Shown here: piece by piece, positions 26,991 to 29,670 of the stretch
Layout of the letters: each line of letters opens with the position of its first letter
How positions within the stretch are numbered: position 1 is the stretch's first letter
From: Bacteroidota bacterium
GTDB taxonomy: Bacteria > Bacteroidota > Bacteroidia > Palsa-965
DNA length: 64,000 nucleotides
NCBI GenBank assembly: GCA_020402865.1
Contig: JADBYT010000007.1
Location: forward strand, 62,001-126,000
Reading direction: 5' to 3'
Made by a program: the position numbers and the translations under genes
Notes under the pieces: model-generated
The model's input: only the letters and a program-made list of their open reading frames with translations
What the model was told of the DNA's origin: nothing
Databases searched by the model: none

Positions 26991-27022
26991 TTGCATCTCC
27001 CCCTCCCCATTCCCTATATTTG
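26991..27022 (+). promoter_or_regulatory. thrS promoter
   Basis: TTG at 26991-26993, a 21-nt spacer and TATATTTG at 27015-27022, a full match to the Bacteroidota consensus. Transcription should start near 27027, giving a leader of about 38 nt. Confidence 0.75.
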
Positions 27023-27039: not shown

Positions 27040-27056
27040 CCTGCGTTGTAGGCAGG
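27040..27056 (+). promoter_or_regulatory. tRNA-Thr anticodon-arm mimic in the thrS leader
   Basis: A perfect 5-bp stem CCTGC/GCAGG with a 7-nt loop GUUGUAG. Numbered as an anticodon loop, this gives U33, UGU at 34-36 (a threonine anticodon) and A37. It ends 8 nt before the thrS ATG, where bound threonyl-tRNA synthetase would block initiation, as in the E. coli thrS operator. The structure is seen in the sequence; the regulation is inferred. Confidence 0.5.
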
Positions 27057-27064
27057 CTTACTTT

Positions 27065-29014
27065 ATGATCAACATCACACTCCCTGATGGTTCTGTGCGC
27101 CAGTACGAAGCCGGAACCACTTCTCTCCAAATCGCTCAATCGATCAGCGAAGGATTAGCACGCAACGTTTTAGCAGCCGAAGTAAACGGCGAAGTTTGGG
27201 ATGCCACCCGCGCCATTGACGCTGACGCATCGCTCAAACTCCTTACGTGGAACGATACCGCAGGTAAAGAAACCATGTGGCATTCCTCGGCTCACCTTAT
27301 GGCCGAAGCGCTGGAAGCACTTTACCCCGGCATCAAATTCGGTATCGGCCCGCCCATTGAAAACGGCTTTTATTACGACGTAGATCTGGGCGACGACCGG
27401 AAGCTCACGCATGAGGACCTGCCCGTGATTGAGAAAAAAATGCTCGAACTGGCCGGCCAGAAAAACGCCTATGTGCGTCAGGAAATGCCCAAAGCCGAGG
27501 CGCTTGGCTTTTTCCGCGACAAAGGCGACGAGTACAAACTCGATCTGCTGCAGGATCTTGAAGACGGTAAAATTACCTTCTACACGCAGGGCAATTTCAC
27601 CGATCTCTGCCGCGGTCCGCATATTCCCAACACCGGCTTTATCAAGGCCGTGAAGCTGCTTAACCTTGCCGGTGCCTACTGGCGCGGCGATGAAACAAAA
27701 AAGCAGCTTACACGCATTTACGGCATTACCTTCCCCAAGCAAAAAGAACTCGACGAGTACCTTGTAATGCTTGAGGAAGCCAAAAAACGCGACCACCGCA
27801 AGCTGGGCAAGGAGCTCGAACTCTTTACCTTCTCCGAAAAAGTAGGCATGGGTTTACCGCTCTGGCTGCCCGCCGGTGCCGCCCTGCGTGAGCGCCTGCA
27901 GAACTTTTTGCAGAAAGCCCAGCTCAAAGCCGGTTACGTACCGGTAATTACACCGCACATCGGCAACAAGCAGCTTTATATTACCTCCGGCCACTACGAG
28001 AAATACGGCAAAGATTCGTTCCAGCCCATCCGTACACCGCAGGAAGGCGAGGAGTTTTTCCTCAAGCCGATGAACTGCCCGCACCACTGCGAAATCTACA
28101 AGAGCAAACCGCGCTCTTACAAAGATCTTCCGGTGCGCTTTGCCGAATTTGGCACCGTGTACCGCTACGAACAAAGCGGCGAACTCCACGGCCTTACCCG
28201 TGTGCGCGGCTTTACACAGGATGATGCCCACCTCTTCTGCCGCCCCGACCAGGTAAAAGAAGAATTCTGCAAAGTAATTGACCTTGTGCTGTACGTTTTC
28301 CGCGCGCTTGAGTTTACCGACTATGTGGCTCAGGTATCACTCCGCGATAAAACCGACCGCAGCAAATACATCGGTACCGACGAAAACTGGGAAAAAGCCG
28401 AAAGCGCCATTGTAGAAGCCGCCGCCGAAAAAGGCCTGAAAACCGTTGTGGAATATGGCGAAGCTGCCTTCTACGGCCCTAAACTTGATTTCATGGTGCG
28501 CGATGCAATTGGCCGTAAATGGCAGCTTGGCACCATTCAGGTTGATTACAACCTGCCCGAACGCTTCGAGCTCGAATACACCGGCGCCGACAACATGAAG
28601 CACCGCCCGGTAATGATTCACCGCGCTCCTTTCGGTTCAATGGAACGCTTCGTAGCAGTACTTATTGAACACTGCGCCGGCAAATTCCCGCTCTGGCTCA
28701 CTCCCGAACAGGTGGCCGTGCTCCCCATCAGCGATAAATACATTTCTGATGCGGAAAATGTACTGGAACAATTGAAAAATTACGATATTCGGGGATTCGT
28801 TGACGACCGTAACGAAAAGATTGGCAAGAAAATACGCGATACCGAGCTGAAAAAAGTTCCGTACATGCTCATCATCGGCGAAAAAGAAGCAGCAGAAAAA
28901 ACTGTTTCCGTTCGCCGCCAGGGTGAGGGCGACAAAGGCTCCATGAGCGCCGAAGAATTTGCCAACCTCATCAATACCGAAGTCCGCGAAAAACTGGAGT
29001 CATTCAGTAAATAG
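27065..29014 (+). CDS. thrS: Threonyl-tRNA synthetase
   Basis: A class II synthetase charging tRNA-Thr, 649 residues. It has an N-terminal TGS domain ([16 protein letters not shown]), an editing domain with [16 protein letters not shown] and the [10 protein letters not shown] segment. The catalytic core has motif 2 [12 protein letters not shown] and the zinc-binding [12 protein letters not shown], and motif 3 is [14 protein letters not shown] normal anticodon-binding domain closes the protein. The ATG at 27065 gives the standard start. The leader carries a possible autoregulatory operator. infC follows 38 nt later. Confidence 0.97.
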
Positions 29015-29042
29015 TTAATTCAAACAAGTATCACTTAAAAAC

Positions 29043-29055
29043 GGAGGTTCACATC
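29043..29055 (+). promoter_or_regulatory. infC Shine-Dalgarno GGAGG and AUC start codon
   Basis: GGAGG (29043-29047) stands 5 nt before ATC (29053-29055), an ideal spacing in a genome region where such sequences are otherwise rare. ATC is in frame with the conserved infC reading frame with no stop between. Confidence 0.6.
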
Positions 29056-29670
29056 GCTACTCCTTTTAACCGTCCACCCGGACCGCCCCGCCCAGCAGGA
29101 AGCGGTGGTGGCAGTCGCCCGCCCTTTAACCGTGGCCCACGTATGCCGCGAAAAGAAGAACTTCACCGCATTAACGAAAAGATTCGTGATGTAAATGAAG
29201 TACGCGTTGTTGGCGAAGACATTGAACAAGGTGTTTTTTCGATCGAAAAAGCACTTGAAATTGCACGTAATGCCGGTCTCGATCTGGTAGAAATTGTGCC
29301 CAATGCCGTGCCGCCGGTTTGCCGTGTGGTGGACTATAAAAAATTCCTCTACGAACAGAAGAAGAAGCAAAAGGAAATCAAAGCCAAAGCCCAAAAGGTG
29401 GTGGTTAAAGAAATCCGCTTCGGTCCGCACACCGATGATCACGACTTCAACTTCAAGAAAAACCACGCTCAGAAATTCCTCGAAAGTGGAGCCAAAGTAA
29501 AAGCCTACGTGTTTTTCCGTGGCCGTACCATTGTGTTTAAAGAACAGGGCGAAATTCTCCTGCTTCGTTTTGCACAGGAACTCGAAGAATTCGGCAAAGT
29601 GGAACAACTGCCTCAGCTGGATGGTAAACGCATGTCTATTATGCTCACGCCTAAGAAGAAAGCGAAATAA
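29053..29670 (+). CDS. infC: Translation initiation factor IF-3, probably using an AUC start
   Basis: Keeps 30S subunits free and proofreads the start codon and initiator tRNA. From the internal ATG at 29143 the protein has 175 residues; from ATC at 29053 it has 205, adding a Pro/Gly/Arg-rich tail [15 protein letters not shown] and NRGPR. The N-domain has [17 protein letters not shown], the linker is lysine rich ([14 protein letters not shown]), and the C-domain has [13 protein letters not shown] and ends MLTPKKKAK. The ATC start is preferred because of its Shine-Dalgarno, and because non-AUG starts on infC are known to allow autoregulation by IF-3. The internal ATG is the alternative. Confidence 0.88.

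Follow-up and report, generated by a model that had tools for sequence, protein, structure and literature searches.

Does the messenger RNA of a threonyl-tRNA synthetase gene in a Bacteroidota bacterium (Palsa-965) imitate the tRNA of the enzyme that it encodes? The gene, thrS, lies in a 64,000-nucleotide (nt) stretch of contig JADBYT010000007.1 (assembly GCA_020402865.1, positions 62,001 to 126,000), hereafter the window, and is preceded by a short hairpin that resembles the anticodon arm of tRNA-Thr. Based on comparisons across thrS leaders and threonyl-tRNA synthetases (ThrRS), the hairpin is very probably a translational operator of thrS, an arm to which ThrRS would bind and thereby block initiation on its own mRNA.

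A tRNA-Thr anticodon-arm mimic in the thrS leader

The sequence at 27040–27056 agrees with the initial annotation in containing a 5-base-pair stem and a 7-nt loop with U33-UGU-A37, and the interval that had been assigned to the element, 27040–27064, consists of this hairpin and an 8-nt spacer, such that the arm does end 8 nt upstream of the thrS ATG at 27065 (Table 1). The thrS leader is predicted to be ~38 nt long, from a start inferred from the -7-like element of the putative promoter (Table 1), and no Shine-Dalgarno sequence is present in it. When the predicted transcript is folded, all five pairs of the stem have a pairing probability of 0.92–1.0 and the hairpin is the single stable arm of the leader. 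An alternative fold that breaks the hairpin was obtained with input including upstream DNA and was rejected, as that DNA falls within the predicted promoter or precedes it.

The hairpin is not a tRNA gene, and no complete tRNA fold was identified in the window by ARAGORN. The arms of the genome's own tRNA-Thr have the loops TTTGTAA, TTGGTAA, and TTCGTAA and stems that are also unlike that of the hairpin, and the mimic therefore matches the recognition core and no single tRNA gene. The description of the hairpin as an exact geometric copy of a threonine anticodon arm accordingly stands for the geometry and the U33-NGU-A37 core, but not for positions 32 and 38 or for the sequence of the stem.

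Conservation within the family

The order to which the genome belongs is represented by 12 genomes, all in one family, nine of which, from three genera, have a readable thrS start. The resulting set of nine leaders was not chosen by folding. The hairpin is kept in all nine, 6–13 nt upstream of the ATG, and it is more strongly conserved in their alignment than the rest of the leader, the promoter-like TA..TTTG block excepted. The stem is CCTGC/GCAGG in six of the leaders and CCTAT/ATAGG in the other three, a double compensatory change, and the loops (GTTGTAG, GTTGTAT, ATCGTAA, TTAGTAT, and GTTGTAA) have U, C, or A at position 34 (27047 in the window) with U33, G35, U36, and A37 constant. G35 and U36 are identity elements for ThrRS (PMC9976931), and a free position 34 next to fixed U33, G35, U36, and A37 fits the prediction from ThrRS identity rules.

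Class-wide scan of thrS leaders

Using a collection of 218 thrS leaders from the class Bacteroidia, 80 named contigs among them, every U33-containing loop of 7 or 8 nt was scored by constrained folding with any bases permitted at positions 35–36 and a cut-off of -4 kcal/mol. GU at these positions (an NGU loop) occurred in 70 of the 218 leaders, and any other dinucleotide, with all 16 free to appear, in six leaders at most. NGU hairpins were present in 157 of 8,813 background tiles of 112 nt (1.8%) and in two of 192 leaders of other open reading frames (ORFs), and the excess over background corresponds to p ~1e-60 (Fisher; an order of magnitude only, as relatedness is ignored). In total, the arm was found in dozens of related genera. 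As a positive control, the scan recovers the arm of the Escherichia coli thrS operator, GTGATCT-TTCGTGT-GGGTCAC. There was no excess outside the Bacteroidia, with two of 35 thrS leaders from the phylum's other classes scoring in the same scan. For the other class II synthetases of the genus (PF00587, PF00152), the leaders sampled were without an NGU hairpin, and no recurring strong hairpin with a different anticodon occurred in the leaders of other synthetases of the genus either. One genome (G003), rated 99% complete, had no ThrRS match, though three other PF00587 matches were present, and is probably missing sequence.

The initial annotation had put the chance of such an arm at about one in several thousand, which is about right: across 1.02 million background positions the strict geometry (five Watson-Crick pairs, 7-nt loop, U33, GU) is expected in ~1 per 2,000 leaders of the length of the window's leader, and in ~1 per 4,600 if A37 is added. 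Approximately 1–2% of arbitrary 112-nt stretches contain an NGU hairpin of such stability, and the hairpin could in principle have arisen in this way, but its conservation in nine of nine family leaders with compensatory change makes a chance origin untenable, and with the excess over background pointing in the same direction, chance is scarcely credible and the least probable of the explanations considered here. A second exact match to the 7-nt pattern in the same genome, CCTGCGTGGTAAGCAGG (L341, 1501–1517, minus strand), has GGU at the anticodon; it is antisense within a long ORF and was attributed to chance.

Covariation of the stem

The hairpins used for the covariation analysis had been selected on their folding and on the presence of U33 and GU, a procedure that inflates the paired percentage and those letters of the loop. 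Neither the dinucleotide control nor the family set is subject to this bias, and because U33 and GU were search criteria class-wide, it is on the family set and the 16-dinucleotide control that their fixity rests. Amongst 36 distinct hairpins with a 7-nt loop, 99.4% of cells were paired (a value subject to the inflation above) with two-sided changes at all five pairs, and the covariation score was 0.909 versus 0.391 after shuffling, with slid registers reaching 0.18 at most. For 30 hairpins with an 8-nt loop the score was 1.290 versus 0.261 shuffled, with slid registers at or below 0.33. Taken with the nine family leaders, the class-wide set thus has both the stem covariation and the invariance of NGU that the initial annotation had proposed looking for in thrS leaders of the Bacteroidota.

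Stem covariation alone would be compatible with a generic hairpin near the start codon that stabilizes the 5' end or is sensitive to unfolding, with a loop that is not specifically recognized, and the closeness of the hairpin to the start codon would influence initiation or decay in any event. Such a hairpin is very unlikely to be the explanation, as U33, G35, U36, and A37 remain constant in the unselected family set while the stem changes, no other 35–36 dinucleotide is enriched class-wide, and the leaders of other genes do not have it. A37 is present in >90% of the 36 distinct hairpins with a 7-nt loop. The t6A37 machinery acts on tRNAs with U36-A37, and the conservation of A37 after U36, as in t6A substrates, would suit an arm read by this or another anticodon-loop protein instead of ThrRS. 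This possibility appears even less likely, given that G35 is not expected to be needed by t6A enzymes, that GU was the sole 35–36 pair to be enriched, and that the arm is missing from the leaders sampled for other synthetases of the genus.

Architectures and distribution amongst the Bacteroidia

The arms occur in three layouts. The window's own family and others possess a single 7-nt-loop arm near the start codon. Algoriphagus, Echinicola, Belliella, and Roseivirga possess an arm with an 8-nt loop (e.g., GTTTGTAN), the acceptance of which by a ThrRS would have a parallel in a yeast mitochondrial tRNA-Thr with an 8-nt anticodon loop (PMC4267643). The Sphingobacteriaceae (Pedobacter, Mucilaginibacter, Sphingobacterium, and Olivibacter) combine a distal arm, typically AATCAC-NTNGTAN-GTGATT and located ~37–90 nt upstream, with a second arm, AATCAT-AGTTGTAG-ATGATT, whose 3' strand is formed by the start codon and the second codon (L037, L047, L054, and others). 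Based on the ThrRS tree and the scan, both arms are present in 22 of 25 members of the Sphingobacteriaceae clade and one arm in the other three, and amongst the leaders studied two-arm leaders are confined to this clade.

Two hairpins stand apart from these layouts. In L123 (G091) the variant CCTGC-GCACGTAT-GCAGG has A for U at position 33 and an 8-nt loop, and was overlooked by the scan for U33. In L056 (Chitinophaga filiformis) a hairpin with a 6-nt loop, AGCTGT-AGGTTA-ACAGCT, ends near the thrS start and is possibly degenerate or unrelated.

The strands of the arm are inverted repeats near a promoter, as would also be the case for a DNA operator bound by a transcription factor. The sequences of the stems, however, swap freely with the asymmetric center TNGTA retained on the sense strand, and one form of the arm overlaps the start codon, making a DNA operator highly improbable, below both the generic hairpin and a t6A37 reader.

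The ThrRS tree calls for a minimum of 11 events in which the arm was gained or lost, and such changes have therefore been frequent. It is reasonably likely that mimicry by the thrS mRNA is a recurrent design of the Bacteroidia, with at least three architectures, used with ribosomes that mostly ignore Shine-Dalgarno sequences, and of an origin independent of the E. coli operator.

A candidate translational operator

The ThrRS encoded in the window is 43% identical to that of E. coli, possesses the anticodon-binding domain PF03129, and retains the counterparts of E. coli N575, R583, E600, and R609 in the alignment, the last three of which have been named as binding residues (PMC6430810). We infer that free ThrRS would bind the arm through this C-terminal anticodon-binding domain, reading G35 and U36 as in tRNA-Thr. 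Because the arm lies 8 nt upstream of the start codon, ThrRS bound to it would deny the 30S subunit access to the initiation region and translation of thrS would fall, such that ThrRS in excess would shut off its own production. Abundant tRNA-Thr would compete for ThrRS and relieve the repression, matching the supply of the enzyme to that of the tRNA. Bacteroidia ribosomes in general do not recognize Shine-Dalgarno sequences (PMC9976891), and as a result the block must act without competition for a Shine-Dalgarno site. In the double-arm form, in which the stem of a mimic includes the start codon, this codon itself would be clamped by ThrRS.

Several observations weigh against an operator read by ThrRS. 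Loop positions 32 and 38 are both G and not tRNA-like, the window has one arm versus the two that the E. coli operator offers to a dimeric enzyme, and the paired percentage was raised by the folding-based selection of hairpins, which leaves the dinucleotide control unaffected. Further, amongst the Bacteroidia thrS leaders examined, no arm was found in the Hymenobacteraceae, the Fulvivirgaceae, and several Flavobacteriales, and with many families of the class lacking it, the arm must be dispensable.

Features of the locus

The Bacteroidota promoter consensus is TAnnTTTG, and the putative thrS promoter is listed with the other features of the locus in Table 1.

Table 1. Positions within the window of the thrS gene and the features of its leader
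Feature	Position	Strand	Description
Putative promoter	26991..27022	+	TTG (26991-26993) and -7-like TATATTTG (27015-27022), from sequence; TA..TTTG block conserved in the family
tRNA-Thr anticodon-arm mimic	27040..27056	+	CCTGC-GTTGTAG-GCAGG; 5-bp (base-pair) stem, 7-nt loop, U33-U34-G35-U36-A37
Arm stem strands	27040..27044, 27052..27056	+	CCTGC and GCAGG, from sequence
Arm loop	27045..27051	+	GTTGTAG; T 27046 = U33, GT 27048-27049 = G35-U36, A 27050 = A37
Hairpin-to-start spacer	27057..27064	+	CTTACTTT; 8 nt, without Shine-Dalgarno
thrS	27065..29014	+	Threonyl-tRNA synthetase, presumed repressor; 649 amino acids; TGS, SAD, class II core, and anticodon-binding domains

Downstream of thrS, infC (IF3) has an apparent non-AUG start, ATC at 29053–29055, with GGAGG upstream at 29043–29047 (window 29040–29060). 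GGAGG together with ATC, ATT, or ATA is retained at infC in several relatives, which is notable as Shine-Dalgarno pairing goes mostly unused in this phylum, and the combination may reflect autoregulation of IF3 as in E. coli infC.

Comparison with known systems

Leader RNA control of a synthetase gene is a feature shared with the T-box riboswitches. T-boxes bind tRNA and not the synthetase, and there was no T-box match at the window locus or at the six loci scanned with Rfam. No regulatory RNA family reached the gathering score at the window locus or at these six loci, which included E. coli thrS, the operator of which was itself unmatched in the scan. No literature title or abstract on a thrS operator in the Bacteroidetes was found in a search that largely did not extend to subscription journals, where an earlier note is possible.

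Messenger RNA elements that resemble the cognate anticodon loop have been described for yeast HisRS and yeast ThrRS (PMC6542539, PMC9956033), with RPC10 as the ThrRS target (PMC9956033). Those cases pair a synthetase with such an element, as here, but concern eukaryotic mRNAs, whereas the element in the window is a leader hairpin of a bacterial thrS.

The closest likeness is to the thrS operator of E. coli, the textbook case of an mRNA that imitates a tRNA for its own synthetase. This operator has four domains, among which are a pair of anticodon-like arms and a region for ribosome binding whose Shine-Dalgarno sequence is weak (PMC11088916, PMC3858243); ThrRS binds the two anticodon-like hairpins and prevents binding of the 30S subunit, and control passes to MetRS if the anticodon-like bases are replaced by the anticodon of tRNA-Met (PMC11088916). 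In both systems thrS is preceded by a hairpin whose 7-nt loop carries the threonine anticodon core (TTCGTGT in E. coli, as recovered by the scan), and the enzymes belong to the same family and share the anticodon-reading residues. As the initial annotation had anticipated, the layout differs: the window has one short arm in a ~38-nt leader and no second arm, the arm is 8 nt from the ATG versus 21 in E. coli, and both the four-domain layout and the Shine-Dalgarno domain are absent. Judging by these sequence features, the arm probably works like the E. coli operator, dispensing with the second arm and the four-domain Shine-Dalgarno layout, and is apparently new for the phylum.

That the same trick recurs in many genera of so distant a phylum, and in different layouts, suggests a repeatedly used solution and not a curiosity of E. 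coli. The thrS leaders of the Bacteroidia provide a natural series of operators in which 7- and 8-nt loops, one and two arms, and free and paired start codons can be compared, as well as an immediate way to examine how initiation is blocked by a repressor when ribosomes mostly skip Shine-Dalgarno pairing.
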